A DNA stretch of 42,447 bases from a virus. Shown one piece after another: positions 10,963 through 42,187 of this stretch (its first letter is position 1; each line of letters opens with the position of its first letter). The stretch is from positions 1 through 42,447 of IMG/VR virus record IMGVR_UViG_3300032006_001297, one strand, 5' to 3'. The notes under the pieces were generated by a model. That model saw only the letters and a list, made by a program, of their open reading frames with translations. It made no database searches and was not told the DNA's origin. The translations under genes were made by a program, and so were the position numbers.

Positions 10963-10996
10963 ATTTTATATGGAGTTAGAACTCTTTATTTTATAT
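10955..10996. repeat. 17-base direct repeat at the GAPDH 3' end
   Basis: The 17-base sequence aactctttattttatat occurs at 10955-10971 and again at 10980-10996, a period of 25. The second copy includes the last codons of the GAPDH gene. This looks like a short tandem duplication of the gene end and its flank. Confidence 0.7.
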
Positions 10997-12022
10997 AGTT
11001 TTAGAGGTATTTTTCTTTTTATTTAGGAAATCAAGCAAATCTAGCACTCTGCAACAATAACCATGCTCATTATCATACCATGCAAGGAGTTTAATAAATC
11101 TTTTATTTAGGACATTAGTTGATAGGCAATCTATTACTGCCGAATAAGTGTTACCGATATAATCAACTGAAACTAATGGTTCGCATGAGACATCAATAAT
11201 ACCTTTCATTTTACCTTTGCCTTCTTTAATAAAAAGTTCATGTAGAGTTTCTATATCAACATCTTTTTGCACTTCAATTGAAATATCTAATAATGAAACA
11301 TCTGGAACTGGTACTCGGATTGCTTGTCCATCTAACTTACCATCTAATTCTGGTATAACAAACCCAACACTTTTTGCGGCACCAGTTGTAGTTGGAATCA
11401 TAGATATAGTTGCTGCTCGTGCTCTTCGTAAATCTGGATGTGAGGAATCTAATAAAGTTTGCCCCATTGTGAAGGAATGAATAGTAGTAATAAAACCCTG
11501 TTTAATTCCATAATTATTTTGTAATACTTTTAATATAGGTGTTAAACAAGTAGTAGTACATGATGATGAAGAAATAATGTTATGCTCTTTAATTTTATAA
11601 TCTGTTTCATTAACACCATATACTAATGTTGCATCAACATCTTTTGCTGGTGATGTTACAATTACATTCTTTGCACCAGCTTCTAAGTGTTGTTCTAAAT
11701 CATGTTTGTTTGTAAACTTACCAGTAGTATCAATAACAAAATCAACTTCCAATTCTCCCCAAGGAAGTTTTGCAGGTGACTTTCTATCAAAATTTGGTAT
11801 CGTATGACCATTAATAATTAGATTATCTAATTCATAAGAAACTTCGCCACCAAAATGACCATAAATAGAATCATATTTAAAAAGATGAGCCCGAACATCA
11901 ACTGTCGTTCTTGCATTAATACCAACAATATTATATTTTGGATTATTAATTAAATCACGAACTAATGATCTGCCAATTCTACCAAAACCATTAAACGCTA
12001 TGTTTATCTTTTTCTCTACCAT
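10991..12022 (-). CDS. gap: Glyceraldehyde-3-phosphate dehydrogenase-like enzyme
   Basis: The 343-residue protein covers the whole family length. NGFGRIGR (11-18) is the dinucleotide-binding loop, SSSSCTTTC carries the catalytic Cys155, TTIHSFTMGQ carries His182, HPDLRRARAA and IPTTTGAAKSVG form the phosphate-binding region, and WYDNEHGY ends the domain. It would interconvert glyceraldehyde-3-phosphate and 1,3-bisphosphoglycerate. Two departures stand out: the NAD-selective Asp that normally follows Asn after the second strand is Ala37, followed by Arg38, which favours NADP; and the usual AYTNDQ is SFTMGQ. GAGGTGG precedes the ATG at 12022. An erythrose-4-phosphate dehydrogenase activity cannot be excluded. 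The gene closes the nucleotide-metabolism unit. Confidence 0.9.
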   Translation of the reverse strand: MVEKKINIAFNGFGRIGRSLVRDLINNPKYNIVGINARTTVDVRAHLFKYDSIYGHFGGEVSYELDNLIINGHTIPNFDRKSPAKLPWGELEVDFVIDTTGKFTNKHDLEQHLEAGAKNVIVTSPAKDVDATLVYGVNETDYKIKEHNIISSSSCTTTCLTPILKVLQNNYGIKQGFITTIHSFTMGQTLLDSSHPDLRRARAATISMIPTTTGAAKSVGFVIPELDGKLDGQAIRVPVPDVSLLDISIEVQKDVDIETLHELFIKEGKGKMKGIIDVSCEPLVSVDYIGNTYSAVIDCLSTNVLNKRFIKLLAWYDNEHGYCCRVLDLLDFLNKKKNTSKTI

Positions 12023-12741: not shown

Positions 12742-14643
12742 CTATTTAATGTCAACTACTTCACACTTATCACCAGTACAAGCATATTCTTGTGAGCCTC
12801 TTGTATTATCATGTATCTCATACTTAGACAATTCATTCCAATCAATATCTTTAGGCATTTTTTTCAACATATCTAAATATTCTTGTTCTGAGCATTCTTG
12901 ATAAGGTGCCTGTTTGTAAGAATGATCTGAATAAGGTAAAAAAGAAATTCCGGAAATCATATCAAAATTCTTGTAGGCCCATGCACCAACTTCAATCCAC
13001 TCCTCCTCCTTTACGGTTATGGTAACAGATGGTTTATGTTCACACCAATACTCTTGATACAATTTCCAGAACTCTAATTGTTCGATAGCAGTTTTATCGT
13101 TTCTACAAATTGCAGTTTTAGATGTTTTAATCGGAAAAGAAAACACCCATGTATGTTCTGGTTTTGTTACATCTGATTCATATGGGATACCCTTTTCAAC
13201 TAAAAATTGACAAAGAGGATCTTTTTTATCTCCTCTTACTGTTCTTATGTAAAATAAAGAATGTCTTGCATGAATACCAGAAGCTGCGTCTACCAGTTGT
13301 GAAACAGTACCAGAGGGTTTAACACAAGTAATTGCTGCTGAATGTTCAACACCAACTTGTTTGGAAATTTTTTTATTTGTTTCAATTGCAACTTTTTTCA
13401 ATCCTTCTAAAAGTTCTGGTAATTTACTTCTAGTTCCGTTCGTATAAGTGTTATCCATTATACCAGTTAAAGATACACCAAGTAATGCTTCTTCCTCACA
13501 ATTAGATTTCCATTCTTTAGATAAATAACGAAAATCAGTTAATGTTGCTTGCCAAGTTCCAAGTATAGTTGCAAGTCTTACTTTTTCTATGAGAGTTGCA
13601 GGATCATCATTTGGTCTAATAACAACTTCTGTTAAATTACAAAATTCTTTATCTCTTAAAATAATTTCACTACACGGATTTGTTCCGAAATTATAATTTA
13701 TGTCTCTACGATCACCAAGTTTTTCGACTTGTTTCTTTGCTGCCGCACGATTAAATATACCACGTTCACCAGATTTAGATTCAATTAAAGACATCCATTC
13801 CTTCAAGAAAATATTAACATCTGGTTTTTCTGTATATACAACAGAATTATTTGACAATGCACGTTGAGTATTATCCAACCACCATTGACCAGACTTTGCC
13901 TTTCTCATTCTTTCATCTGTAAGATTAGACAAAGAAATTAATGCTGATCTACGAACACCACCCACTACGACTATCTCAGCAATCTTACACATTAAATCAT
14001 GGCATTCAATAGAAGATAACTTTCTTCCTTTTGCACCTTGAAAAATCTCTACTGTAAAATTAAACAAATTATCTAATGGGGTAGGTCCTGATGATCTTCC
14101 TCCAAATGTTTTTAATCTTTCTCCTGCAGGCCTAACTTTTGACATATCCCATTTCGGTATTTGTCCTGCATATAACATTTGTACTAATTCTTTATAGGCC
14201 TTTGCCCAACCGATCTTTGAATCCGCAACTACAATAGTTGTATCTGTGTCAAATAATTCATCAGGGACTTCAGGTAATTTCTCAACTTCTCTGCGTTCAA
14301 CAGAAAATCCTACACCAGTTCCACACATTAAAATAAATAAACATTCATCAAATGCCCTTGTCTTATTTACTGCCAAATATGCACAATTATAGCCTGCAAC
14401 ATTATCACGTTCTAATGCCTCACCAGCAGTCATTAATGATCTCATAGAAGGCATAATTTCCATATTAAATACTGCTTCTTCTAATTCTTTTCTTTGTTCT
14501 TTTATTCCTTTACGACCTTTTAAATGTTTTTCAAAAAAGTCAAAATATCTCTTTACAGTTTCTTCCCAAGTTTCTCTCCGGTTGTTATCTTCCAGCCACC
14601 TTGCATATCTGCTTTTATGTATAAATTGTTGGTATATGTCCAT
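12742..14643 (-). CDS. nrdJ: Adenosylcobalamin-dependent (class II) ribonucleotide reductase, monomeric type
   Basis: The 633-residue protein has the features of the monomeric class II reductase, as found in Lactobacillus and in cyanophages. YNCAYLAV gives the N-terminal active-site Cys, TNPCSEIILRDKEFC gives the Cys-x10-Cys pair with the radical-bearing residue, VKPSGTVSQL is the substrate loop, and CTGDKCEVVDIK is the C-terminal redox pair. The enzyme makes deoxynucleotides with no oxygen requirement but needs vitamin B12 from the host. It sits one base downstream of ThyX, so dNTP supply genes are coupled. A GGAGAAATT site lies 10-15 bases before the ATG. Confidence 0.92.
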   Translation of the reverse strand: MDIYQQFIHKSRYARWLEDNNRRETWEETVKRYFDFFEKHLKGRKGIKEQRKELEEAVFNMEIMPSMRSLMTAGEALERDNVAGYNCAYLAVNKTRAFDECLFILMCGTGVGFSVERREVEKLPEVPDELFDTDTTIVVADSKIGWAKAYKELVQMLYAGQIPKWDMSKVRPAGERLKTFGGRSSGPTPLDNLFNFTVEIFQGAKGRKLSSIECHDLMCKIAEIVVVGGVRRSALISLSNLTDERMRKAKSGQWWLDNTQRALSNNSVVYTEKPDVNIFLKEWMSLIESKSGERGIFNRAAAKKQVEKLGDRRDINYNFGTNPCSEIILRDKEFCNLTEVVIRPNDDPATLIEKVRLATILGTWQATLTDFRYLSKEWKSNCEEEALLGVSLTGIMDNTYTNGTRSKLPELLEGLKKVAIETNKKISKQVGVEHSAAITCVKPSGTVSQLVDAASGIHARHSLFYIRTVRGDKKDPLCQFLVEKGIPYESDVTKPEHTWVFSFPIKTSKTAICRNDKTAIEQLEFWKLYQEYWCEHKPSVTITVKEEEWIEVGAWAYKNFDMISGISFLPYSDHSYKQAPYQECSEQEYLDMLKKMPKDIDWNELSKYEIHDNTRGSQEYACTGDKCEVVDIK

Positions 14644-15691: not shown

Positions 15692-16687
15692 CTAACATTT
15701 TCTCCACCGTGAAAGTGCAAAATTTGCTTGCAGACCAGAATGTATATTATTATCTATAACATCTATAATCTCTCTGCTTGCCATACCGTTCATTATCATT
15801 TCATTGATGTCTTTTCCTTCAATATCATCTGGCCAAATACAAACTTTATATCCTTTAGTAATAAATTTTTCCATAGAATGTACAATTTCTTTATTTCTTT
15901 TTTCATTATCTAGCACTATGATAGTTTCAAGATCAAAAACATTAAATTTAACACCTGCCATTGCCATACAATTAGGTAAAAATAAACTATCAAGTGGGCC
16001 TTCAACACAATATTTTCTTTTTGATTCATCAATTCTTTCCTGCCCGTATATTAAATCCTCGACTCCTTTCATTTTAATAGTTATGTATTTAACTGGTTCT
16101 TTCGGATCAAACGATCTTCCTTGAAAACCAATAACATTATTTTTACTGTCAAAAAATGGTATTATTAATCTCGGTGTATCTCCTTTCAATGAAGAAAACT
16201 TTTTAGGTATTACTTCATTAGTCCACTTTTTAAATTCTGTGCAAAAATAAAGTTTTTCAAAATAGTTTTCTGGTATTAGTCTTTTTGATAAGTATTTTCT
16301 TGCTGGATGATCCTTTTCCAAAGAAGTAATGATTTGAAGTCCGTGAAGAACATTATTAAATTCTGGAACAAAATTAAATTTACGACTACTATCATCTTTA
16401 CTAACAATTCTTTTCTCTTTATACTTTTCAGTAATATATTCTCTATGTAAAGACGGATTTATTTTTTCTAAAAAATTACTAAAATTTGTTCCATACTCAC
16501 AATTATGACAACGATAAAAATATTTATTTTGTTTTTCATAAATAAAGCCTCTGGCCTTATTTTTATTCTTTTGAGAATCTCCGCATATAGGACAACGGAA
16601 GTTCCACAAATTATTTGTTTTCTGTTTAAATTTTTCTAAACTATTAGAACATATGTTTATATATTTTACATCAATAAAAGCATTCAT
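15692..16687 (-). CDS. 61: DNA primase, T4 gp61-like
   Basis: The 331-residue length fits T4 gp61 (342). An N-terminal zinc ribbon is formed by Cys32/Cys35 (RCPICGDS) and Cys60/Cys63 (YRCHNCEYG). The TOPRIM catalytic core includes YCVEGPLDSLFL (Glu229, Asp233), IIVLDNE and KVCIWPDDIEGKDINE. It makes the short RNA primers for lagging-strand synthesis with helicase gp41, which is encoded in the upstream unit. The ATG at 16687 lies two bases after the stop of the dehydrogenase gene. Confidence 0.92.
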   Translation of the reverse strand: MNAFIDVKYINICSNSLEKFKQKTNNLWNFRCPICGDSQKNKNKARGFIYEKQNKYFYRCHNCEYGTNFSNFLEKINPSLHREYITEKYKEKRIVSKDDSSRKFNFVPEFNNVLHGLQIITSLEKDHPARKYLSKRLIPENYFEKLYFCTEFKKWTNEVIPKKFSSLKGDTPRLIIPFFDSKNNVIGFQGRSFDPKEPVKYITIKMKGVEDLIYGQERIDESKRKYCVEGPLDSLFLPNCMAMAGVKFNVFDLETIIVLDNEKRNKEIVHSMEKFITKGYKVCIWPDDIEGKDINEMIMNGMASREIIDVIDNNIHSGLQANFALSRWRKC

Positions 16688-16689
16688 CT

Positions 16690-17781
16690 CTATTCTCTAT
16701 AAATCTTCCCAAATGTTGTTCCATACACATCTTCTAATTCTACATGCTCTTGTCTAACATAACCTTCTTGTAGTATCTTTTTTGTTAAATATAATTCAAC
16801 CATTGCCAATAAACCAATAGCAGTAGTATATTGTATAGCAGTTAAGTATCTTCCATTAATAAATGTCGGTTTAAAAATTTTATGATAGTTATTATCATCA
16901 ACAGAAGCAAATAAAATAACAACATCATCAAGTGTTTTAGGAATTCTTTTAAATATTCCTGTCAATTCACTTTGATTTAAAGATAAATCATTAAAAAGAA
17001 AATCAATATAATTATGATGGCCAATACGTCGGATAGTTTTATAATCAACATTTAAAGATGGATATTGCTGGTCTAATGTTTTTGCAAATGTTCCAAGGCC
17101 ACCAGATGTATGAAATGCCTCGTATTCTCTACCATCCAATGTTATCTTTTCATAACCAGATAGTGCTGGTACTGTTTTATATTTACCATTATGTATAATT
17201 TGACAATCACCTAAATATTCATTAACCAAACCTTCACCACTCCAAGATGTATAATATCTTAATTTGTTAGAAGCATTCTGTGATAATGCACCAACACGAA
17301 TTTTAACACTACGAGGATTTTCGGCTTTTTTCAAAAGATGATTTGCAATAACCGTAGACATGCCAGGGGCAAGACCACAATGTGGCATTGTGAATGGAAT
17401 TTCTTCCCTATCTTTAATTAAAGATATTTCTTTAAGCAATTTAATATGTTTGTCTAGGGAATCATCTTCGGATAAATCAAAGTATGGAACATCATACGTT
17501 ATACAAGCTTTATATAAATTTATGTTTTGATGAAAAGGGAGAGCATTAATGATAAGAGTTTTACCACTAACAAATTGATTGAATTGAGTACACTCACCAT
17601 CATATGTTGGTTTAGTAACTTTCAAACGGACATAATTTTCTTCAGGTATCTTTGCTGGTCTATTAATTTGATCTGCGATAGATATTTTATATCCACAACC
17701 AGTACTAGCAAGTAGGTCGTAAATCGTAGAACCAATAGTTCCTGCACCAACTATTCCAATATGCGTTTCTTCATTAGTCAT
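16690..17781 (-). CDS. Saccharopine dehydrogenase-like NAD(P) oxidoreductase
   Basis: The 363-residue protein opens with a Rossmann motif, IGIVGAGTIGSTIYDLL (residues 8-24), and has HCGLAPGMS near residue 154, the hallmark of the saccharopine dehydrogenase superfamily catalytic domain, followed by alpha/beta segments with GGLGTF and RRIGH. Lysine-metabolising members interconvert saccharopine with lysine or glutamate plus aminoadipate semialdehyde; related members make carboxyspermidine or homospermidine, so the substrate is open. It is the first gene of its unit, and its promoter's -10 is so close that the ATG at 17781 is at or next to the predicted transcription start, with no room for a ribosome site. 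It is unusual in a phage and probably host-derived. Confidence 0.8.
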   Translation of the reverse strand: MTNEETHIGIVGAGTIGSTIYDLLASTGCGYKISIADQINRPAKIPEENYVRLKVTKPTYDGECTQFNQFVSGKTLIINALPFHQNINLYKACITYDVPYFDLSEDDSLDKHIKLLKEISLIKDREEIPFTMPHCGLAPGMSTVIANHLLKKAENPRSVKIRVGALSQNASNKLRYYTSWSGEGLVNEYLGDCQIIHNGKYKTVPALSGYEKITLDGREYEAFHTSGGLGTFAKTLDQQYPSLNVDYKTIRRIGHHNYIDFLFNDLSLNQSELTGIFKRIPKTLDDVVILFASVDDNNYHKIFKPTFINGRYLTAIQYTTAIGLLAMVELYLTKKILQEGYVRQEHVELEDVYGTTFGKIYRE

Positions 17782-18391: not shown

Positions 18392-18715
18392 TTAAAACAT
18401 CTTTCCATCTTGTGCTTCAATTTCATCTTTATATTCATCTGCGTATTCTTGTGCAACATAATCTTTAACTTTCTTATCAAATTTAACGCCTGGAAATTCT
18501 TTAGAATATTTCTTTGCACCATCATCTACAAGATATTTCCATAACTTCGGTGCCTTACTATGGTCATATTTTCCAGACTTCATTTTCCTTTGAATATTCT
18601 TAACAATGGGTACTAGTCTTTGTCTATACAAATCACTATCATTATCTATATATAATCTGAGTTCCATTGCTTCATCTTTCCAATTTTCTTTTACAAATGT
18701 CGTGAAATTTTTCAT
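18392..18715 (-). CDS. Conserved phage protein with capsid-targeting-like N-terminus
   Basis: A 107-residue helical protein beginning MKNFTTFVKENW, similar to the internal-protein leader described for the 23-27 kb block. The body (LRLYIDNDSDLYRQRLVPIVKN, KAPKLWKYLVDDGAKKYSKEF) resembles an uncharacterised family of marine T4-like phages. The start overlaps the upstream stop by one base. It may be a virion or head-internal protein. Confidence 0.6.
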   Translation of the reverse strand: MKNFTTFVKENWKDEAMELRLYIDNDSDLYRQRLVPIVKNIQRKMKSGKYDHSKAPKLWKYLVDDGAKKYSKEFPGVKFDKKVKDYVAQEYADEYKDEIEAQDGKMF

Positions 18716-22600: not shown

Positions 22601-23197
22601 CTAAATCTCCTTTGTTGTTTTTAATTTTTTACCGATTTCTTTAAAAACGGCCTTTGCCAATCTGGAGTTTTTCGTCATAAGTCCTTCTTTGAACTTTCCA
22701 AACTGACCTTTAATTACGAACTCTCTCATCTTTGAACCAGACATCCCCGCTACTCCCTCGGCGTCTGGGTCACGATCACCTGCCGAGACTACAGAAAAAT
22801 CTTGTATGTTGTCAAGGTCACTATCAACATACTTACTCATATTTCTTTGAAATTCTTTTACTCTATCACTACCGACTACGAAAATAACTTTTTTATAACC
22901 TTTTTTATTTAATGCGTCCAACGCAGTAAAAGGTGTATTTATTGATCTATCAGTATTTATAATGTTACCATATACATCTTTTAGAACTGCTATTTTAGTC
23001 TTAAACGATAATGGATTCTTTTTTTTATCTTCTGTTTTAGATGCAAATACCATTGGTATTCCACCTTCTTTTTTTGCAACCCAAATTATTTTATTAATTA
23101 ATTTTGCATGACCGATAGTTGGAGGATTCATCCTTCCAAAAGAAAAAACAACTGGCTTATTAATATTTTCTCTTAAAAAGTTTCTAAAAGTAATCAT
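22601..23197 (-). CDS. HxGH-type nucleotidyltransferase with capsid-targeting-like leader
   Basis: The preferred start is the ATG at 23197, which overlaps the upstream stop as ATGA behind AAGAGG; longer forms add an unrelated tail. The 198-residue protein begins MITFRNFLRE, then VVFSFGRMNPPTIGH (Thr27-Ile-Gly-His30), the HxGH-like nucleotide-binding motif of cytidylyltransferase/NMN-adenylyltransferase enzymes, and GMSGSKMRE (about 152-159) as the second signature. FVVGSDRVKEF lies between them. Substrate unknown: NMN and CTP-type reactions are both possible. The leader suggests packaging inside the capsid. Confidence 0.8.
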   Translation of the reverse strand: MITFRNFLRENINKPVVFSFGRMNPPTIGHAKLINKIIWVAKKEGGIPMVFASKTEDKKKNPLSFKTKIAVLKDVYGNIINTDRSINTPFTALDALNKKGYKKVIFVVGSDRVKEFQRNMSKYVDSDLDNIQDFSVVSAGDRDPDAEGVAGMSGSKMREFVIKGQFGKFKEGLMTKNSRLAKAVFKEIGKKLKTTKEI

Positions 23198-23427
23198 TGG
23201 CCTCTTGACATCTTTCCAAGTTTTAATCCTGCAAACATTGAAATCCATTTAATATCTTCGTCTGCTAATTGTTGTAATACTTCCTTTGGATATTTATCAA
23301 CCATGTTCTTTAACTTTTCACCTTGTTTGTATGACATCTTTTCAATGTTACCATATTCTTTGCGTAACTTGTCAATCATTCTAGGTGCAAAAGTTTTACC
23401 TTCTACCATTTCTTTGTAAGTTTTCAT
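23194..23427 (-). CDS. Small internal-protein candidate (MKTYKEMVEG leader)
   Basis: Start chosen at the ATG at 23427, because the protein then begins MKTYKEMVEGK, almost identical to the leaders of its neighbours; the longer form would use TTG. The 77-residue product is basic and helical (MIDKLRKEYGNIEKMSYKQGEKLKNMVDKYPKEVLQQLADEDIKW). Possible DNA-associated head protein. Neighbours on both sides carry the same leader. Confidence 0.7.
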   Translation of the reverse strand: MKTYKEMVEGKTFAPRMIDKLRKEYGNIEKMSYKQGEKLKNMVDKYPKEVLQQLADEDIKWISMFAGLKLGKMSRGQ

Positions 23428-23675
23428 TTTATATATTCCCAACCTTTTTTCAATAGTGCTTTTAACTTAGGAGAATCTTTCTCCATACGCATCACACTAT
23501 CACCATCATCAGAAAGATGAACAATAATAACGTCATCAGATTTTTCTTTCTTAATTTGTTTGGTCATTGTCCTGATAGATTTACTAGTATTGCTTCCAGA
23601 GTAACTACTTTCTTTCTCTCTCTTAACAATATCCTTTAACGTCTTATCTTCTAAGAATGTTTTATAAGTTTTCAT
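23424..23675 (-). CDS. Small internal-protein candidate (MKTYKTFLED leader)
   Basis: An 83-residue protein starting MKTYKTFLEDKTLKD. The leader matches the capsid-targeting sequence of T4 internal proteins (MKTYQEFI-type, then Glu where the prohead protease cuts). The remainder is Lys/Ser-rich, then DDVIIVHLSDDGDSVMRMEKDSPKLKALLKKGWEYIK. It overlaps both neighbours by four bases. Confidence 0.7.
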   Translation of the reverse strand: MKTYKTFLEDKTLKDIVKREKESSYSGSNTSKSIRTMTKQIKKEKSDDVIIVHLSDDGDSVMRMEKDSPKLKALLKKGWEYIK

Positions 23676-24022
23676 ACTTTTTTGATTTCTTTATTAGAGA
23701 TTAACTTTTTCCAGATTTTTGTATCAACATCTTCGATAGGTCCTGTGGTTTTTTTCTTTTTCATGTCATATCTAATTATATAATGTTTTCCTTTTTTCTC
23801 TATTACTTTCATATGACTTGCCGTACTTTTGCGAATACCTGTCCATTTAGAAATCATAATGGTGTTAGCAACTATCTCATACATCTCACCATTTTCAATT
23901 TCTTTTTTGACATCATCCATTAAACCTTCACTAATTTCTTTTTCAAATTGCCTATAGGTTTTCCGGTTTTCTAATATTTCTTCTTGTAAGTCAAGCCATG
24001 GCTGACAAATTAAATCATTCAT
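23672..24022 (-). CDS. Hypothetical protein of the internal-protein block
   Basis: A 116-residue protein whose start (ATG at 24022 behind GAGGAATAA) gives MNDLICQPWLDLQEEI; a KTYRQFEKEISEG segment at residues 21-33 resembles the neighbouring leaders but is internal. The C-terminal half has strands MYEIVANTIMISKW and KHYIIRYDMKKKK, which look like a small beta domain with a basic edge. No family recognised. Confidence 0.6.
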   Translation of the reverse strand: MNDLICQPWLDLQEEILENRKTYRQFEKEISEGLMDDVKKEIENGEMYEIVANTIMISKWTGIRKSTASHMKVIEKKGKHYIIRYDMKKKKTTGPIEDVDTKIWKKLISNKEIKKV

Positions 24023-24025
24023 AAT

Positions 24026-24244
24026 TTATTCCTCTTCTTCGTCCTCATGGTTTACACATGCTTCATCTTTTCCTTCTTCTTCATCATCAGATTTCCATTC
24101 TTTGTCAATTTCATCAAAAAACTTTTTCTTTTCTTCATCCGATAATTCTTCCGGACTATCAACTCCATACTTTTTTAACTTTTTATCAAAGAATTTTTGA
24201 TATTCTTCTTTACTGCCTTCTATAAATGATTTATAAGTTTTCAT
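24026..24244 (-). CDS. Small acidic internal-protein candidate (MKTYKSFIEG leader)
   Basis: A 72-residue protein starting MKTYKSFIEGSKEEYQKFFDKKLKKYGVDSPEELS, with an acidic tail of Glu and Asp. I recall similar short proteins in cyanophage T4-like genomes with the same leader. GAGGAGAAATA precedes the ATG, which overlaps the stop of the zinc-finger gene upstream. Likely head-internal. Confidence 0.7.
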   Translation of the reverse strand: MKTYKSFIEGSKEEYQKFFDKKLKKYGVDSPEELSDEEKKKFFDEIDKEWKSDDEEEGKDEACVNHEDEEEE

Positions 24245-24420
24245 TATTTCTCCTCTTGTAGGCCAACTGCTTCTAGTGACAAATTAATTTTTTCCATACT
24301 AATTTCTTTAAATCTATTCATAATATTTTTATATTTTTTATGATTCGGACAAGTACATTGCCAATTAAACAATGCTTCACATTTAGCACAATACCTCGAT
24401 TTCATTTTAGTAGTAGTCAT
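24244..24420 (-). CDS. 58-residue zinc-finger protein
   Basis: A short gene from the ATG at 24420 (AAAGGTA site) to TAA at 24246-24244. The product contains RYCAKCEALFNWQCTCPNHKKY, a Cys-x2-Cys, Cys-x-Cys and His pattern that could bind zinc, then a Lys/Asn-rich helical tail. It overlaps the upstream gene by 14 bases and the downstream ATG by one, which is typical of this operon and supports it being real. Function unknown. Confidence 0.65.
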   Translation of the reverse strand: MTTTKMKSRYCAKCEALFNWQCTCPNHKKYKNIMNRFKEISMEKINLSLEAVGLQEEK

Positions 24421-24607
24421 TACCTTTTGTCCAATCCTCTAGTTTATTTTTTTCATATTCTTCGTACTTATCAATAAATCTATGTATTATATTTCCCAAC
24501 TCTCTCAAATCCATTTCCTCAGTATTTTGACCAAAAACTTGTTGTCGTTCATACTTAGCAATATATCTGTTTAATACATCTTTTAAATGTTTTAAATCTT
24601 CAATCAT
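24407..24607 (-). CDS. Hypothetical helical protein
   Basis: The ATG at 24607 overlaps the stop of the oxygenase gene as ATGA, giving 66 residues (a TTG at 24622 is an alternative). The product is a charged helical protein (MIEDLKHLKDVLNRYIAKYERQQ ... ELGNIIHRFIDKYEEY), possibly a coiled-coil dimer. No family recognised. Confidence 0.55.
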   Translation of the reverse strand: MIEDLKHLKDVLNRYIAKYERQQVFGQNTEEMDLRELGNIIHRFIDKYEEYEKNKLEDWTKGNDYY

Positions 24608-25212
24608 CCCATTGTCCACCAATTATCTTTTCGTGCTATAGATGTTACCAAATGTATACGATCTTCTTCACCACCATTAAACTGACTGTGATAAAAAACT
24701 GTATTCGTATACCAAGCTCTACCGACAGGTAAATGTTTTACCTCATCTTCAATAACCATCTTAGCACCTATGTTTGTAATAATAGGAACATGAAGTCTTG
24801 GTTCAGGATCGCGATGCCAAGATAAGGAACTTCTTGGTGTTGACTTAATCAAACGTACTCGACCCAACTGACCTTCATATTCACTATCAACATATTGTGA
24901 TAATGTATCATAAACTTCTTTAAAATATGTTTTTTTAAACTCTGGAATAAAAATACCGTAATCTTTTTCATCAAGTTCTTGTTGTCTGATAACTTCTTGT
25001 CCATCAACCATTGTTCGATAAACACCACCAGTACCTTCATAAAAACATTCTGGAGCTTCTTGAAAATCTCTTTTTGTCAAACAAATCTGATGATATTTTT
25101 TATCAGCATTTAAAACTTGATCTGGCCAAGGTGCAATCTCTAAAACTTCTTCAAGTGCTTGTGCAAGTTTTATTTCATCAAATATAATAGGCAACTTCAC
25201 GAAATATTTCAA
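24604..25212 (-). CDS. 2-oxoglutarate/Fe(II) oxygenase-like protein (aspartyl hydroxylase type)
   Basis: The 202-residue protein contains SSLSWHRDPEPRLHVPIITN with the iron pair His133-x-Asp135, and a later FYHSQFNGGEEDRIHLVTSI with the distal histidine (His187) and the Arg that binds 2-oxoglutarate. This resembles the aspartyl/asparaginyl beta-hydroxylase family. The apparent start is TTG at 25212 with an AAAGGA site, because no ATG precedes the conserved region. Substrate unknown: a virion protein or a host protein is possible. It sits inside the internal-protein block. Confidence 0.75.
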   Translation of the reverse strand: MKYFVKLPIIFDEIKLAQALEEVLEIAPWPDQVLNADKKYHQICLTKRDFQEAPECFYEGTGGVYRTMVDGQEVIRQQELDEKDYGIFIPEFKKTYFKEVYDTLSQYVDSEYEGQLGRVRLIKSTPRSSLSWHRDPEPRLHVPIITNIGAKMVIEDEVKHLPVGRAWYTNTVFYHSQFNGGEEDRIHLVTSIARKDNWWTMG

Positions 25213-26424
25213 TTACCAATCCTTTGCAATAGTAAAGTTTGCATGAGAAAATTCAAGTCTATCCACTAACTTAACTGCACCACCTTTTGTATTAATAGCA
25301 ACAAAACCTTCTGGTGCCGTGACTTTAAAACCATTAGGTGTTTTAAGAAATGTTCCAATACTTTTAATTTTCTCTAATTGTTTTACAACCATATTTTTTG
25401 CATCAAGAATACCTAAATAGGTTGCCATAGTAAAATATAATTCATTTTTAAATTTTCTTAAAACTTTTTGTGCATCTTTTTGTATGTCTTTATATTTCTT
25501 TTTACCTTTATCAGATTTCTTTGTATCAATTTCTGTTGATAATCTATCTGTGTAATATTGTTCAAACTCTTTAACAAGATTTTTAGTATCAGCAATTTTT
25601 GAACCAGCACGAACTTTCGTATTAAAAAATACTTTCATCAATGGTGCCAGACCCCATTTTGTTTTATCTTTACCGAGTTCGTTTAAAAACTTACCTGCTT
25701 TTCCAGCAGCACCTGCAATTTGATTTATTTTTTTCTCTAATTTATTTACGTCTGCTGGACTAAATGTGACTGCGTTAGCAGTATCTAAGTAAGCATCATC
25801 AAACCAAACTCTTTTTGATTTCTTGAAAATATTTGCATCAACACCAAAAGATGCCTTTAATGAATCAATTGATTTTCCAGTATACTTTGTGTGCCACACC
25901 ACTCCAAGACTTGCCTTTCTTATTGTTGAGGCTAAGTCACTATCTTCTGGAACAGCATAGGTGATAGTATTAGGTCCGAAAGTCAACATACTGACATCAT
26001 CAATAGTTTGCTTTTTCAAATCACCTTTGGAAAACATAATGTCACCCTGATAGATGCCTTTCATTCCCAGATCAGGTAAAGTTTTCAATGCAACTTTTAA
26101 TTTATCTGAAGGACCCTCTGAACCGTGATTAGCATCAATGTCTGCTACTGTATAATTAATTTTAGGGACCTTATTAAAAAGTGATTTTGTTGCAACAAAA
26201 AACTTTCCGTTCTCTGGATTGATACCAGCAAAAATTGCTGGAGCACCATCCCACTTTACAGTCACATTCGTTTTACTTTTCCCTCCTGCTAACATATCCT
26301 TAAGAGAATTTAAAAACTGAATTGCTGTAGTCGCACCTTTTACACCATTGTTGATGATTTCATCTTCAAGGTGCTCCATGTGCGTATTTTTATCTTCATT
26401 TAATATTTCTTTGAATGATAACAT
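25213..26424 (-). CDS. KxDG ligase/nucleotidyltransferase-like protein with capsid-targeting-like leader
   Basis: The 403-residue protein begins MLSFKEILNEDK, matching the block leader (L-x-E cut site). It then shows a pattern seen in covalent nucleotidyltransferases: VTVKWDGAPAIFAG with Lys57-Trp-Asp-Gly (motif I), GIYQGDIMF (123-131, motif IV-like), GVVWHTKYTG (174-183), and PEGFVAINTKGGAVKLVDR (371-389, motif V-like with Lys385 and Arg389). In DNA and RNA ligases the motif I lysine carries AMP. I recall the family in T4-like phages as DUF6267, unassigned. The ligase fold is my inference from motif order. Confidence 0.7.
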   Translation of the reverse strand: MLSFKEILNEDKNTHMEHLEDEIINNGVKGATTAIQFLNSLKDMLAGGKSKTNVTVKWDGAPAIFAGINPENGKFFVATKSLFNKVPKINYTVADIDANHGSEGPSDKLKVALKTLPDLGMKGIYQGDIMFSKGDLKKQTIDDVSMLTFGPNTITYAVPEDSDLASTIRKASLGVVWHTKYTGKSIDSLKASFGVDANIFKKSKRVWFDDAYLDTANAVTFSPADVNKLEKKINQIAGAAGKAGKFLNELGKDKTKWGLAPLMKVFFNTKVRAGSKIADTKNLVKEFEQYYTDRLSTEIDTKKSDKGKKKYKDIQKDAQKVLRKFKNELYFTMATYLGILDAKNMVVKQLEKIKSIGTFLKTPNGFKVTAPEGFVAINTKGGAVKLVDRLEFSHANFTIAKDW

Positions 26425-26427
26425 GAA

Positions 26428-27531
26428 CTACCACTTAATAGTATTGTTATGTGAAATCAAAGGTTCATAATCCATGTAGTCAACCAATCTTTTAAAATTA
26501 TCTCCAATCCATTCTTTTGCCTGTTCAAATTTTTCTAAAATCCAGTTGACAAATTTAGTAAAAAGTTCCAGTACTTTTTCTTTCATTTTTTTATAAAAAT
26601 CTGCAACACGATCAACAAAACCTTCTGCTATTAATTCTTTTTCAATTTGTTCAAATCCTTCATCCATAACCATCTTGACACCTAAACCAACCGTTGCCCA
26701 AAAGTTATATATTTTTTTTCCTGTCTTGTCTGCACTTCCTTTGACGGATGATGATTTAAATTTAACGTCAGGTTTTACTTGACTAGCAATTTTCTTAACA
26801 TATTTATCTGATGATTTTGTGACAGTATGAAAATCAGATTTCGTTCCTTCATAATTTGTTATCAAAAATGAGGTTGCTGTTCCTTCATTTCTTCCAAATT
26901 TTTGTGATCCTGTCATTGCTTCAAAAGTAAACTCCTCTGCAAAAGCAGAATTTTTCTCAAATGCTTTTCTTAAATCTGTTTTAAATGCTTTATGAAAAGC
27001 ATCTATTTCTTCAAACACTTTTCCTTTTGCTGTTCCTATTAAATCACTTTTATTACCATGAACTTCTTTTCCTTTTTTATCTGTTAAACGAAAAGAAGTT
27101 TTTAACCCTTTTAATTGATTTTCTATTTTCTTTAATAAAACAGTATTATCAACTTTTTTCATCGCAGCATAAAAAGTTGCCTGTGCTTCTGCACGTTGAC
27201 CACTCATTAGTTGGGCATTTCCAGTTTTCAAAGAAATATAATTCTTTCCAATTATAATATCAGTCTTTGGTGTTTTAGTAGAACTAGGAACTTTACCATC
27301 AAAATAAGAAGCCCATTCTTTTGTTACTTCATATCTATTTGAAGGAAACTTACCCTTACCCGTTATCTTTTGTTTCTTCAATACTTTTTTAGCATTTGCA
27401 ACTGTAACTCTGGGATCTTTAAATTTTGCTTTCTTATCATTATTTGCAGCTGCAACTAGTGCTGCTTCCATTTCAAATGCACCAGATGTATCTGCTTCTT
27501 GTAAGTCTAACCAATCTTTATATGATTTCAT
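26428..27531 (-). CDS. Large internal or structural protein with MKSYKDWLDLQE leader
   Basis: A 367-residue protein starting MKSYKDWLDLQEADTSGAFEMEAALVAAANN; cleavage after LQE would fit the T4 prohead-protease rule. A middle domain (60-290) includes KTDIIIGKNYISLKTGNAQLMSGQRAEAQATFYAA, which resembles conserved phage head-associated proteins. The C-terminal 70 residues are helical and amphipathic (KEKVLELFTKFVNWILEKFEQAKEWI). The ILKTGN-like strand with Lys recalls a nuclease-type fold, but no catalytic set is evident. AGGAAAG precedes the ATG. Confidence 0.65.
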   Translation of the reverse strand: MKSYKDWLDLQEADTSGAFEMEAALVAAANNDKKAKFKDPRVTVANAKKVLKKQKITGKGKFPSNRYEVTKEWASYFDGKVPSSTKTPKTDIIIGKNYISLKTGNAQLMSGQRAEAQATFYAAMKKVDNTVLLKKIENQLKGLKTSFRLTDKKGKEVHGNKSDLIGTAKGKVFEEIDAFHKAFKTDLRKAFEKNSAFAEEFTFEAMTGSQKFGRNEGTATSFLITNYEGTKSDFHTVTKSSDKYVKKIASQVKPDVKFKSSSVKGSADKTGKKIYNFWATVGLGVKMVMDEGFEQIEKELIAEGFVDRVADFYKKMKEKVLELFTKFVNWILEKFEQAKEWIGDNFKRLVDYMDYEPLISHNNTIKW

Positions 27532-27736: not shown

Positions 27737-27744
27737 TATTTATA
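27737..27744 (-). promoter_or_regulatory. T4-like late promoter box
   Basis: TATAAATA, the T4 late-promoter core, read leftward, ending 10 bases before the ATG at 27727. The spacing is short for a leader with a ribosome site. In AT-rich DNA such boxes occur by chance, so support comes from its intergenic position. Confidence 0.4.
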
Positions 27745-28008: not shown

Positions 28009-28016
28009 TATTTATA
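28009..28016 (-). promoter_or_regulatory. T4-like late promoter box at the end of gp41
   Basis: TATAAATA read leftward, overlapping the stop codon of gp41 (28012) and lying 26 bases before the ATG at 27983. The placement marks the switch from replication genes to the probable head-protein block and fits late transcription. Confidence 0.5.
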
Positions 28017-29427
28017 TGTTCCAATCTTCATAACTTTTTTCAGTTCGTTTCTGAGGTTTAATTTTAAGTGTATATGGATTGGCATTTGTATTAGCATCGG
28101 ATTTTTTCTCATAATATTTGTTACTTCCGTCATTTGCCAATGCTGGTTGATCGTTTTCTTCAATGTCAACTAATTTCATTTTCTTCTTAATCACATTAAC
28201 CAAAAACTTACTATTCAATGAAATGTCACTATATCTATTTTTTAATTGCTTAAACAAAATCTGATTATTAACTCCCGCACCATCATCCTTTGCAATAATT
28301 GCTAACATCAAATCTGCTGTTGCAGGTAATCCAAAACTTTCTGATGTATTAGATAAATCAGGATCCGAACTTGTAAAACCCTCTCGGTTTAATTGCGAAC
28401 TGGTAATGATCGGAACATTACATTCGACCGACAATCCACGAATTTCCTCTGCAATAGATTTAATGTAGATATAAGTGTTCATATTAGCTGCCCACTTAAC
28501 TCTACTTGATGCACAAATATTTAAATAATCTAAAATAATAACTTGTGGTGTAAAATCTTTTTTGATTTTCAATTCTCTTATCAATGCACGAAAATTTCCA
28601 ACATGAGCACCTGCTGTTGGGTATTCTTTAATAATAAGTTTTCCAATTTTTAAATCATATAATTTTTTTGCAAAAACATCCCTAGGCAGTAAATGTAAAT
28701 CATGCAACTCCGTATCCATTAAATTTGCATCAATTCTTTCTGCGATTCTCTCCTCTGCCATCTCCATAGTAATATATAAAACATCCATTCCCTGTTTTAA
28801 ATATTGACTGGCAAAATGAGTCTTGACCAAAGTTTTACCAACTCCCGTACCACCTAATAAAACTGTCAAAGTTTTTGGTGATATTCCTCCGTTGGTAATC
28901 TTATCAAGCATAGTCATTTGAAATGGAATTTTAGTTTCTTTTTGATGATAGAAATTCCATCTATCCTCACCATCTTCCAAATAATTATGACCGATACTTT
29001 TATCTAATGAAACTGCCAATGCTTCTGTAAGAATTTCTGGTATTGCATCTTTAGACGTTTTCTTTTCTTTACCTTCCAGAATTGAAATACTTTCAACGAT
29101 ACCATTATATACTGCCTGATCTTTTGCCCACTTTTCTGTTTCTTTTGTCAACCATTCTTCATCATCAGTTTTACTTGTTAATGATTTAAGAACTTCATTA
29201 CATTTATTAAATATAGTTTCATTTAAATCTTCTCTATTATTTAATTTAACAGATATTGCTTCTCTTGTCGGAGCCTTATTAAATTCTGAAATATGTTTTT
29301 GTATTTCAATAAAAATTTGTTTTTCTGCATTTTCTTTAAAATATTCTGGTTTTAAAAAGATACCGACAATACTGGCATAATCTTCATTATATAAAAGATT
29401 TTCTAATATTAAGGATTCAGTCCTCAT
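28012..29427 (-). CDS. 41: Replicative DNA helicase, T4 gp41-like
   Basis: The 471-residue length matches T4 gp41 (475). The C-terminal RecA-type motor shows GGTGVGKT (192-199, Walker A), YITMEMAEERIAERI (218-232), VIILDYL (297-302, Walker B) and SSQLNREGF. The N-terminal 130 residues form the helical primase-interaction domain. It unwinds DNA ahead of the fork as a hexamer, loaded by gp59, whose gene lies one base upstream, and pairs with primase gp61. AAAGGAT precedes the ATG. Confidence 0.95.
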   Translation of the reverse strand: MRTESLILENLLYNEDYASIVGIFLKPEYFKENAEKQIFIEIQKHISEFNKAPTREAISVKLNNREDLNETIFNKCNEVLKSLTSKTDDEEWLTKETEKWAKDQAVYNGIVESISILEGKEKKTSKDAIPEILTEALAVSLDKSIGHNYLEDGEDRWNFYHQKETKIPFQMTMLDKITNGGISPKTLTVLLGGTGVGKTLVKTHFASQYLKQGMDVLYITMEMAEERIAERIDANLMDTELHDLHLLPRDVFAKKLYDLKIGKLIIKEYPTAGAHVGNFRALIRELKIKKDFTPQVIILDYLNICASSRVKWAANMNTYIYIKSIAEEIRGLSVECNVPIITSSQLNREGFTSSDPDLSNTSESFGLPATADLMLAIIAKDDGAGVNNQILFKQLKNRYSDISLNSKFLVNVIKKKMKLVDIEENDQPALANDGSNKYYEKKSDANTNANPYTLKIKPQKRTEKSYEDWNI

Positions 29428-36636: not shown

Positions 36637-37938
36637 CTAAAGGGTTTGACCATCTCGAATAGCAACTGCGTCTGCTACTTCATTAAAATTGAATACAGGA
36701 TCAACTAATCCGTTTCTTTCAAATGCTACTTTCCTCATAAAACACGGAGCACAATTATCACAATGTCTTTTACCATCACCATAACAACTCCAAGTTAAAT
36801 CATACGGTACATCTAATGCAACTCCTTCCTTAACAATTTCATGTTTCATATAAGTTGCTATTGGCTGCAACAACTCAATCTTAACTTTATTTTGAGTAGC
36901 AAAAGGAAGTATATCATTGAACTTCCTACCAAACTCTTGCTCATTGTCTGGATATGCACCACTTTCTTCTAAATTACCACCGAATGCTATGTTACCAAAT
37001 TTGTTTGCTTCTGCATAAGCAGTTAAAACTGCCAACATTAATAGATTTCTACCAGACACCCAATCCATAGCATATTCAGTTCCTTCAATCTGTGACTTAT
37101 GATAAGTCCCTTCTGTAATAGTTCCACGCATAACATCAGGCATTTGAATAAATCTTAAATCAAATCCACCATGTTCTGCTATCTTTTTTATGAAACTAAC
37201 TTCTTTATCTTGAGCTAAACAATTATACATTAAATGCACAAGTGTTACATCATAACCTTTTGCCTGTAACATATATGCAACAGTTGTAGAATCTAATCCT
37301 GCTGAAGCACTAACCAAAACTTTTTTATTATGTTCTCTTGGTAAATCTTTTATTTTAATATGATCTGTCGAATAAGCCTTAGAAGAACAAACTTTCATAA
37401 TGGAATATGGTTTCATTGGTACAGAACATCCCATTAACATATCTGGTGTTGATGCAAACATAAAACCATAATTTTTTTTAATAAAATATATTGGTTTATA
37501 ATTACAAGCAAGCATTAATGATTCTTCATCAAAATATGCTATTGCATAACTTCCTTCTATCTTTTGTATATTCTCATAAAGACTACTAAAATTTCTTGGT
37601 TTCAAAACTTTAGGTAATACAATGGAGTCAATAACTTCATCAGAAAAGTGTTTATCATTTGCAATAACTCCATTATGCACAATACCTTGATATGGCTGCA
37701 GTATGTCTATTTCACTTTCTGCTTCAGTTGTCGGTGTGGCACGAAAATTACCTACAACTCGTTTTCCCAATAACAACTTATTAAATAAATCAGGATCAAT
37801 GTCCCCCATACCACGAAATTCTTCCCCATCAATCCAAAAACCATGTCCATCACGACCCCTTTCTCTACCATGACTAAGTATATGGAGTTTTTCATCCGTT
37901 GATATTTCTTCACCCGTCCATCCAACTATTGAACACAT
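36637..37938 (-). CDS. queC: Glutamine amidotransferase-QueC fusion (Gat-QueC)
   Basis: Start placed at the ATG at 37938 behind AGGAG, because the next residue is then the catalytic Cys2 of a class II glutamine amidotransferase (MCSIVGWTG); the longer form would bury it. The 433-residue protein has an amidotransferase half (RERGRDGHGFW, VGNFRATPTTE, IVHNGVIAN) and a QueC half: PP-loop VSASAGLDSTT (209-219), VSGRN, and the zinc set Cys385, Cys393, Cys396, Cys399. QueC converts carboxy-deazaguanine to preQ0. Similar fusions in Crenarchaeota are implicated in archaeosine synthesis and have been reported in some phages. Probably converts preQ0, free or in DNA, to an amidino or amido form. Confidence 0.9.
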   Translation of the reverse strand: MCSIVGWTGEEISTDEKLHILSHGRERGRDGHGFWIDGEEFRGMGDIDPDLFNKLLLGKRVVGNFRATPTTEAESEIDILQPYQGIVHNGVIANDKHFSDEVIDSIVLPKVLKPRNFSSLYENIQKIEGSYAIAYFDEESLMLACNYKPIYFIKKNYGFMFASTPDMLMGCSVPMKPYSIMKVCSSKAYSTDHIKIKDLPREHNKKVLVSASAGLDSTTVAYMLQAKGYDVTLVHLMYNCLAQDKEVSFIKKIAEHGGFDLRFIQMPDVMRGTITEGTYHKSQIEGTEYAMDWVSGRNLLMLAVLTAYAEANKFGNIAFGGNLEESGAYPDNEQEFGRKFNDILPFATQNKVKIELLQPIATYMKHEIVKEGVALDVPYDLTWSCYGDGKRHCDNCAPCFMRKVAFERNGLVDPVFNFNEVADAVAIRDGQTL

Positions 37939-37948
37939 AATATATCTC

Positions 37949-39241
37949 CTAAAATAATGACGCAGCTGATACAGTTGCATCCTTAACGGTTTCTCTGTTA
38001 GTCTTTTTTAAATAATCATCTAAAAACTTATGATTAACTTCTGCCTCGACATTTTTATTATCCAACTCATTAAAAAACTTTTCAATCAGATTAAAATTAT
38101 CAACTATCTTTTTTGGAAAGAACTCATTATAAATGTCTGACAATCCACAACTAAATATTCGATTTATATTTTCAAGATATTCTAATTGTAAATATAAATT
38201 ATGAAATGCTATCATGTTATTGAATTTACCAAACACTAATTTTTCTTCTCCGGTATCTTCATCAATTTTATAACTATTAAAAAAGTTATACGGGTCAACC
38301 AAATCTTCACATATTGGACACCTACAAGGCATTTTAAAATTTTTAGACATTTCTTTATAATGAATCTGATTAGACCATTTCATTGCTTCCATACCCAAAC
38401 CAACAATATATCTTGGCCTTGTCATATAACTACCATATACACAAGTACGATTCCAATATGTCGAATCATAAGTAATCTGTATATCAATATCCATTTTATC
38501 CAATAGCATTTGTATAAACTGAAAATATACCATGCTCTCATTAGATGTTACACCAAAGATATGAAACATCTTACACTTTTCTCTATCCAATTCACCACTC
38601 TTTAATAAAAACTTTAATGCAGGAAGAATACGACCTAGATTTCCATTTGTTCCACCATAGGCCCATCCTTCAAACTGATACTTTCCTATTTCTTTATACC
38701 ATTGAGAAATTTGTTCAACAGTCAAACCTTGCAGAACATTAAGAACCGTTGTATCAGTTCTAGTTCTATTCTCCATATAATACTTTGCAGATGCAACGGA
38801 TAAATCTAAACACTCCTGATAATCTTTATATGGGGATTTTGGTGTACCATCTTCTTTTTTTAGATGTAAAGTAAAAGAAGGTCTATCAAGGATAGGAAAT
38901 ATATCACCATTTTTTTCACTCCATTCAAGAGCTATTTTATCTGTAAACTTTTTAGGATCAACTGTACCATGTGCTAGATTGTACCCACCACTATCTACAA
39001 ATATAAGAGCATCATCTGCTTGGATTGTCTTTCTAAAATCTTTTTTTCGATAAGAAGTTCCAGCAGATATTAGCATAAAAAAATTCTTAAAATAAGACTC
39101 ATTATCTTTTTTATAAATCCTCAACGATTTCTTTTTATTAAAATCTTCTTGATTTTCTTGTGCTATTTCTTGGTCTGATTTTCCATAGAACATTCCCATC
39201 AAACCATCACTATATGCAGGTATATACAATGCTTTCTTCAT
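37949..39241 (-). CDS. dpdA: DpdA-like DNA guanine transglycosylase (TGT superfamily)
   Basis: The 430-residue protein has the TGT barrel features: FVDSGGYN with Asp83, TYDSTYWNR with the probable nucleophile Asp259, and a zinc site Cys306-x-Cys308-x2-Cys311 with His347. AYGGTNGN (195-202) corresponds to the GGLAVGE loop. Phage members of this family (DpdA) exchange guanine in DNA for a 7-deazaguanine, protecting it from restriction. The cysteine-to-histidine spacing (35) is longer than in tRNA enzymes. A tRNA target cannot be excluded, but the full precursor pathway next to it in a phage favours DNA. It is coupled to FolE by an ATGA overlap. Confidence 0.88.
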   Translation of the reverse strand: MKKALYIPAYSDGLMGMFYGKSDQEIAQENQEDFNKKKSLRIYKKDNESYFKNFFMLISAGTSYRKKDFRKTIQADDALIFVDSGGYNLAHGTVDPKKFTDKIALEWSEKNGDIFPILDRPSFTLHLKKEDGTPKSPYKDYQECLDLSVASAKYYMENRTRTDTTVLNVLQGLTVEQISQWYKEIGKYQFEGWAYGGTNGNLGRILPALKFLLKSGELDREKCKMFHIFGVTSNESMVYFQFIQMLLDKMDIDIQITYDSTYWNRTCVYGSYMTRPRYIVGLGMEAMKWSNQIHYKEMSKNFKMPCRCPICEDLVDPYNFFNSYKIDEDTGEEKLVFGKFNNMIAFHNLYLQLEYLENINRIFSCGLSDIYNEFFPKKIVDNFNLIEKFFNELDNKNVEAEVNHKFLDDYLKKTNRETVKDATVSAASLF

Positions 39242-40815: not shown

Positions 40816-41273
40816 ATCACGTTTTTATTTGTAATATTTAACATCTTTGCCAATACTACCAGTTGCTGTGATAACATTTTGGATTCCGGAGATTTAGATT
40901 CCAAATCCATAATATGATCTTTTGAAATTATACTGGATAACAATTGTGCTATTTCACTTCGTCCTTGTACCCATTGCTCAATGGTTTTCTTTGCTTCAAA
41001 GAATCTTTCACCACCTATCTCTTTTGCTTCATCATGGTATTGAACGAAATTTGTTAAAACACTTCTTACTAATTCTGATTTTGAAACTTTTAATTCAGTT
41101 GCTACTCTACCCAAAGCATTATCTAATTCGTGTGCAAGTCTAAACTTACCTAACCTAACAACATTTCCATTTTCATCATTAACAACTGCTACAAAAAGTT
41201 CTTTATCTTGAACAGCATCTTTTCCCGGTATTCCTTTTTGTCCTTTCTTATTTCTTTTGTTTTCTCCCATCAT
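40812..41273 (-). CDS. Ribbon-helix-helix-like protein, possible regulator
   Basis: Start taken at the ATG at 41273 (ATGA overlap with QueE); one at 41282 is also possible. The 153-residue protein has a basic head (NKRNKKGQKGIPG), then a strand and two helices, VVRLGKFRLAHELDNALGRVATELKVSKSELVRSVLTNFV, the pattern of a ribbon-helix-helix domain, then helical segments. It may regulate the surrounding cluster or bind DNA. Family not identified. Confidence 0.6.
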   Translation of the reverse strand: MMGENKRNKKGQKGIPGKDAVQDKELFVAVVNDENGNVVRLGKFRLAHELDNALGRVATELKVSKSELVRSVLTNFVQYHDEAKEIGGERFFEAKKTIEQWVQGRSEIAQLLSSIISKDHIMDLESKSPESKMLSQQLVVLAKMLNITNKNVI

Positions 41274-42187
41274 GTACCCCATTCATTTCCAAAAAGATTT
41301 AATTGTAACCTGGGACTATACTTATAACCATAACTCAATGCAATTTCTGCTATTTTCTTTTCTTCCATTTGATGATCTAATGCACCCTCTGGCATTAAAT
41401 AAATTGCATCTATCATAACTCCTGCTTTCTCATATTCTTTCAATGCGTTTGTTACTTCATACATACATGAATAATCTCTAACAACAAATTTAAGATACAA
41501 ATAAGACCCAGGCCAAGTGTTATATGATAACAATGCCTCTGGTACTATTGCATCAATCCACCGTTCACCACTATTTTGAAGTTTAGGAGATACAGACCAC
41601 GTTATTCCATGATAAGGTCTATTGATTGCATATTTTTCATAATAAGCAAGATACCTATCATGGTTGTCATTTTGAAAATCATCAAAATGATATTGTTGGG
41701 TTCCGTTTGTTTCAAATGTAACGTATCTTGTTTTTAAATCTGGATGTGTTATTAATTCACTTACTGCTGGTTGGAAACCTTTTAGTAATGGTTCACCACC
41801 GGTCATAACTAAATGAACACCATCATTTTCTTTGAGATCATCAGAAGCACCACGTTTTTCACCATAAAAGTCAAGAACATTCATTTTTTTAATGATGGTA
41901 TCAATGTCCTCATAGTTTGCAAGGTGTCCCCATTTCTTTCCCCAAGAAAAAGAACTATCACAACCAACTTGAGGTACTGGTAAATCTACAAGTGCCTTTG
42001 CATCAGGATAGTCTTGGTTATGAGGCATATTTTCTTTGGGTATCCATTTTGATCTATCTCTATCTTGACCGAAACCAGTACACTCAAAATTACACCCGAA
42101 CAAACGCAAAAAGAGAGATGGCACACCAACGTACCTTCCCTCTCCTTGAAGTGAGTAAAACATCTCGCTGTATCGTAATTTATTCAT
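41270..42187 (-). CDS. queE: 7-carboxy-7-deazaguanine synthase-like radical SAM enzyme
   Basis: The 305-residue protein opens YSEMFYSLQGEGRYVGVPSLF, a hallmark of QueE. The cluster motif is modified: Cys32-x3-Cys36 is followed by Thr-Gly-Phe instead of x2-Cys, and the third cysteine is probably Cys76 in VGCDSSFSW after a 39-residue insert. TGGEPLL is the SAM-binding GGE motif, and ETNGT is also present. It makes carboxydeazaguanine from carboxytetrahydropterin, step three. First gene of unit 1, with a promoter ending seven bases before the ATG. Confidence 0.9.
   Translation of the reverse strand: MNKLRYSEMFYSLQGEGRYVGVPSLFLRLFGCNFECTGFGQDRDRSKWIPKENMPHNQDYPDAKALVDLPVPQVGCDSSFSWGKKWGHLANYEDIDTIIKKMNVLDFYGEKRGASDDLKENDGVHLVMTGGEPLLKGFQPAVSELITHPDLKTRYVTFETNGTQQYHFDDFQNDNHDRYLAYYEKYAINRPYHGITWSVSPKLQNSGERWIDAIVPEALLSYNTWPGSYLYLKFVVRDYSCMYEVTNALKEYEKAGVMIDAIYLMPEGALDHQMEEKKIAEIALSYGYKYSPRLQLNLFGNEWGT

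Follow-up and report, generated by a model that had tools for sequence, protein, structure and literature searches.

Why do several unrelated genes of one phage begin with nearly the same short N-terminus? The question is raised by the 42,447-base IMG/VR fragment IMGVR_UViG_3300032006_001297 (the window, meaning the whole stretch analysed), which has 31% GC, carries nearly all of its genes on the minus strand and comes from a T4-like marine phage. No nucleotide match to the window was found among phage records; the closest isolate, Pelagibacter phage HTVC008M (Kyanoviridae), is the best annotated match for several of its genes. The leader-gene block sits between a gp41-type helicase gene (28012–29427) and a primase gene (15692–16687), named from their position and from the syntenic annotated islands of phages S-SZBM1 and S-CRM01. 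The best reading is that of a variable cargo operon whose products carry T4-type capsid-targeting sequences (CTSs), and the shared N-terminus is very probably such a sequence.

The seven N-termini given in the initial annotation are all present, on the minus strand (a bar marks the end of each leader). Gene A (26428–27531, 367 residues) begins with MKSYKDWLDLQE, followed by Ala (leader at 27496–27531), and gene B (25213–26424, 403 residues, DUF6267) with MLSFKEILNE|D (26395–26424). Three small proteins have leaders of nine residues: gene D (24026–24244, 72 residues, acidic) with MKTYKSFIE|G (24218–24244), gene F (23424–23675, 83 residues) with MKTYKTFLE|D (23649–23675), and gene G (23194–23427, 77 residues) with MKTYKEMVE|G (23401–23427). 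Gene H (22601–23197, 198 residues), encoding a cytidylyltransferase/NMNAT-like enzyme, begins with MITFRNFLRE|N (23168–23197), its start being the ATG at 23197 inside a longer open reading frame (ORF; longest-ORF start 23248), and gene I (18392–18715, 107 residues) with MKNFTTFVKE|N (18686–18715).

The proposed likeness of these N-termini to the leader of the T4 internal proteins is borne out. In T4 (NC_000866), ipII and ipIII begin MKTYQEFIAE|A and ipI begins MKTFKEFTSTTTPVSTITEA, and the window leaders and those of their relatives fit the pattern; an N-terminal leader of about 10 residues with M-K-[ST]-[FY]-x-x-F-[IL], as in T4-type CTS proteins, was found. Scored against the T4 tag MKTYQEFIAE, the genes reach 31 (F), 30 (D), 28 (G), 24 (I), 23 (H), 19 (A), and 18 (B). 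Six window genes score at least 20 against this tag alone, versus 0.11 expected when the N-terminal residues are shuffled. Five of the six are leader genes claimed initially, with A and B just under the cut, and the sixth (12742–14643, MDIYQQFIHK), lacking the Glu, is a false positive; the best T4-tag score at the 270 internal Met positions of the window is 20. In the reverse direction, a profile built exclusively from marine leaders places T4 ipIII (13.1), ipII (13.1), and ipI (9.4) at the top of 24 T4 genes, the next scoring 3.6. The MKTYK codons are identical in D and F and differ by one synonymous change in G, and because this stretch is nearly identical at the DNA level, the first 15 bases of the three genes may have been copied recently from one another. 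The remaining leaders differ in both codons and residues, which speaks against spread solely through DNA copying.

The motif search in related phages that had been suggested found leaders kept across families and attached to unrelated bodies. For five of the window leader families, relatives keep M-K-x-F/Y-x-x-F-[I/L]-x-E, and the letters vary among IMG/VR relatives while the families retain the leader. Examples are MKSFIEFITE|S and MKSFKNFLKE|A for gene A; MQGFLQYLVE|A, MNSFREFLSE|S, and MKVFTTFIAE|S among the many relatives of gene B; MKTFKGFIKE|GSKEEY and MKTYKSLMAE|GSKEEY for gene D; MKSYRKFINE|A and MKSFNAFLTE|A among the many leader-bearing relatives of gene H; and MKNFKTFIVE|N, MKGFGTFIKE|N, and MKTFKTYLVE|A for gene I. 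By profile, 244 distinct proteins among 3,560 genes of related loci carry the leader, which is not an unbiased frequency because the loci were fetched via the same families and some overlap. They form about 43 sequence clusters, including the training families and false calls (e.g., a UvsX). Internal Met positions of the same loci carry it in 13 of 13,686 cases (0.1%, versus 6.9% of gene starts). In addition, small proteins with F/L-xxx-I/L..E starts, which may or may not be true leaders, were seen in more distant contigs (L155:3269–3475, L155:3804–4052, and L156:485–799).

Some relatives lack the leader altogether. DUF6267 proteins without it begin (M)AKNTHLEH or (M)GAKNLHLEH, exactly past the predicted cut, and some gene H homologs open directly with the enzyme core (MSKKVVFTFGR, MKTVAFVFGR). 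The idea that a leader is needed on only one of DUF6267 and the cytidylyltransferase, the other riding piggy-back, is not supported, because the 48 distinct pairs (27 with a leader on both proteins, 10 with one on B alone, 8 with one on H alone, and 3 with none) are distributed about as independence predicts.

Evidence from particles comes from published mass spectrometry of cyanophages, in whose virions cytidylyltransferase/NMNAT-like proteins and kinases have been found (PMC3037559, PMC9602691, PMC9146016, PMC10665884). The cyanophage virion cytidylyltransferases are homologous to gene H, and S-SZBM1 and S-CRM01 share the helicase–primase neighbourhood. In S-CREM2, 218 annotated proteins were scored, with virion membership taken from Table 3 of PMC10665884. 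A score of at least 18 against the T4-only tag, which contains no marine data, is reached by 5 of 28 virion non-structural ORFs versus 1 of 166 others (Fisher p = 2.4e-4), and the marine profile built without the cytidylyltransferase family gives p = 0.0007–0.01 depending on cut and subset; these p-values are indicative, since some N-termini had been seen before the thresholds were set. Besides ORFs 13 and 136, the tagged virion proteins comprise the cytidylyltransferase homologous to gene H, which begins MKNFSSFLTE|A, a kinase resembling APH (VKRFDAFLTE), and an S-adenosylmethionine (SAM) hydrolase (MKDFDSFLEE). The S-CRM01 virion kinase (detected according to PMC10665884) begins MISFDQFLSE|K, scores 14.7 with the profile and is encoded in the same helicase–primase island. 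MRFRQFIIE|A opens the virion cytidylyltransferase of S-SZBM1, a phage whose DUF6267 protein is leaderless and not among the reported virion proteins. The virions of S-SM1 and S-SCSM1 also contain the cytidylyltransferase-like enzyme. The passages on these enzymes discuss no packaging signal, whereas a common leader supplies one and ties them to the T4 internal proteins. A further S-CREM2 virion protein, the Cas9-annotated ORF12, has RFASFMAE|A further in; ORF12 (L079:7704–10313) and the proteins at L214:6702–7253 and L215:4743–6971, from three phages in all, have a common N-terminus, SRWxxWxxG...F..F[I/L/M]xE|A, with the leader-like motif about 17 residues in, and the tag may thus exist in a longer version.

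The claim of a shared packaging signal, made initially with cleavage after the Glu by the prohead protease gp21, is supported, with refinements as to the cleavage motif and to the need for a leader. In its favour are the leader-bearing proteins, enzymes included, in related virions and the gp21 genes carried by the contigs of two close relatives (L002 and L004) as well as by HTVC008M, S-CREM2, and S-SZBM1. The strict gp21-type motif [I/L]-x-E closes the leader only in A, B, and H (LQE|A, LNE|D, LRE|N), where relatives keep it; E10 is invariant in an alignment of 24 members of the gene B family. Across the related loci, [I/L]-x-E occurs at residues 9–13 in 34 of 43 clusters versus 11% of other starts, a difference partly built in by selection.

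The nearest precedent is the CTS of the T4 internal proteins IPI, IPII, and IPIII (Mullaney and Black 1996, as cited in PMC9958956 and PMC10229621). The two have in common a 10-residue N-terminal leader, equal spacing of aromatic, aliphatic, and Glu residues, and gp21 in the phage group. Unlike those of T4, the marine leaders head proteins with nothing else in common, some of them enzymes, encoded in an operon that lies between gp41 and gp61, and some leaders are one residue shorter or have V for I/L; according to a review, conservation of the IPI/II/III CTS does not extend to the other core proteins of T4. A second precedent is T4 Alt, a packaged ADP-ribosyltransferase cut by gp21 at [I/L]-x-E (ITE-6 and LTE-619; PMC5694885); the likeness lies in the packaged enzyme and in the cleavage motif, and the ten window proteins scanned yielded no Alt-like domain. 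In the giant phages SPN3US and phiKZ, a gp21-like protease processes head proteins, ejection proteins among them, after Glu (PMC5694885), with propeptides mostly of more than 100 residues, as against 9–12 in the window leaders.

On the CTS reading, the leader, with aromatic residues at 4 and 7, Ile/Leu at 8, and Glu at 9–10, would dock its protein on the prohead scaffolding core during head assembly; gp21 would then cut after the Glu and the leader would escape, and the mature protein would stay with the packaged DNA and enter the next host cell. The gp41 helicase–gp61 primase interval would thus be a cargo operon with a core of DUF6267 and the cytidylyltransferase-like protein, to which exchangeable tagged proteins, a putative nuclease among them, are added. 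We infer docking, cleavage, and the task of each cargo in this way, and injection by analogy with T4. Since the window proteins share the T4 tag and related phages carry proteins with such tags in their particles, the tagged window proteins, including the enzymes, probably enter the head and reach the next cell together with the DNA. It also seems fairly likely that the leader serves generally as a loading signal that can be exchanged among dozens of unrelated proteins in marine T4-like phages (NMNAT-like, DUF6267, nuclease-like, kinase, nucleotidase, SAM hydrolase, and many of unassigned function), so that part of the injected set can be read off the sequence. The alternative that survives best accepts packaging and cleavage and has the proteins act in head morphogenesis, as core filler or in DNA condensation, rather than as injected effectors. 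T4 internal proteins do belong to the scaffolding core, and gene D is small and charged, but several cargo proteins are enzymes (a cytidylyltransferase-like one, a kinase, a SAM hydrolase, a nucleotidase-like one, and a putative nuclease) and T4 IPI itself is injected and blocks a host nuclease (review), which makes this alternative unlikely, though not negligible.

Several observations weigh against capsid targeting as the role of the leader. D, F, G, and I lack the strict [I/L]-x-E (FIE|G, FLE|D, MVE|G, VKE|N), the first three being one residue shorter and gene I having V-K-E; the longer form does occur in certain close relatives of D and I (FIKE|G, FIVE|N), and several relatives of I have FIE|A. 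The protease gp21 (PF03420) was not found in this 42 kb fragment, and the virion evidence comes from related phages. The leaders of HTVC008M, although it is the closest isolate, are weak or degenerate, and comparative evidence is thin for F and G, which have few relatives. Many virion-detected non-structural proteins have no leader (area under the curve about 0.6); the leader is therefore one route to virion detection and not a requirement, and it explains only part of the virion cargo. Finally, the authors of the S-CREM2 study note that co-purification is possible (PMC10665884).

This last point, raised there as contamination, bears on a second alternative, in which the leader docks elsewhere (a membrane, a host protein, and the replisome are conceivable sites) and detection in virions reflects abundant proteins that co-purified. 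The leader genes do lie among replication genes, and an amphipathic FxxF[I/L] helix has many potential partners. Yet the T4 proteins singled out by the marine profile are exactly the three with a known CTS, the S-CREM2 virion proteins are enriched in tagged ORFs, the virion table lists no core replication proteins, and leaderless homologs begin at the predicted cut, so that docking elsewhere is improbable. Least credible of all is a similarity born of chance or of biased composition, in which AT-richness, starts rich in MK, and small amphipathic N-termini would account for the likeness, for although the genome is AT-rich and an AT-rich podophage without T4-type head genes gives a few chance matches (2 of 59 starts at a profile score of at least 8, one in a protein of 43 residues and one without Glu), the composition-preserving shuffles, internal-Met counts, and T4 controls reject it, and the pattern persists across families and also in S-CREM2 and T4.

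The bodies behind the leaders differ in how far they can be assigned. Gene A plausibly encodes a nuclease, a putative PD-(D/E)XK-like one (TPKTD...ISLK), on the strength of a T-K-D...S-x-K signature that does not vary and of a weak match in structure to HinP1I (Foldseek probability 0.44, E = 0.058); D91, S100, K102, and Q107 are invariant, and no Pfam match was found. In AlphaFold2 models, computed from alignments without their HTVC008M row, its leader is disordered (low confidence at residues 1–14) and its core ordered in part, and in gene B the predicted local distance difference test score is below 50 at residues 1–12, with order afterwards. Gene B belongs to DUF6267 (PF19782, E = 3.7e-118, 395.6 bits against a gathering score of 27). 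By eye, its KWDGAPA, FFVATKS, and YQGDIMF recall the motifs of covalent nucleotidyltransferases (ligase/capping); Foldseek gave no significant match, an NAD-dependent DNA ligase ranking only 18th at E = 1.4. Gene H belongs to PF01467 (26.1 bits against a cut-off of 21) and matches phrog_3041 (E = 4.7e-54); TIGH and SGSKMR motifs are visible by eye. Gene D matches phrog_28651 (E = 2.5e-7), and its wider homologs often lack the leader. One of the two relatives of gene F carries the leader on an N-terminally extended form (MKSYKTFLDE|A). Gene G has a single full relative, MKTYKELMEGKTF, and a low marine-profile score of 0.6.

The block is tightly arranged, with overlaps by ATGA at E–F, F–G, and G–H and 3 bases separating A and B. 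Four genes within it have no leader at their start (24604–25212, 24407–24622, 24244–24420, and 23672–24022), the first encoding an aspartyl/asparaginyl hydroxylase domain. The last, gene E (minus strand, 116 residues), is coupled to F and begins MNDLICQPWLDLQEE; no homolog of it was found in phages. Its start has WLDLQE and 13 identical bases in common with the end of the gene A leader, and it is possibly a degenerate or recombined leader. A suggestive T4-late-promoter-like site, TATAAATA, lies upstream of the block on the minus strand (27737–27744), and a second at 28009–28016; both are suitably placed as late promoters, but the window-wide count equals chance (9 versus 8.97), and the candidates were rejected. 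Elsewhere in the window, an unusual set of metabolic genes was noted by eye: aldehyde dehydrogenase-like (886–2367), GAPDH-like (10991–12022), saccharopine dehydrogenase-like (16690–17781), glutamine amidotransferase/asparagine synthase-like (36637–37980), and QueE-like (41270–42187).

Few viruses in the sea are as common as T4-like phages. In the open-access literature, to which the search was confined (subscription papers lying outside it), no paper was found that ties this tag or 'capsid-targeting' to cyanophages or marine T4-like phages, and none that mentions DUF6267. Virion proteomics has repeatedly found enzymes in the particles of T4-like marine phages without an explanation of how they enter. 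Prediction of such proteins from a short and easily recognised tag would make the injected set, and its roles in early infection, testable in genomes and metagenomes, and would extend the biology of the T4 CTS well beyond the three internal proteins of T4.

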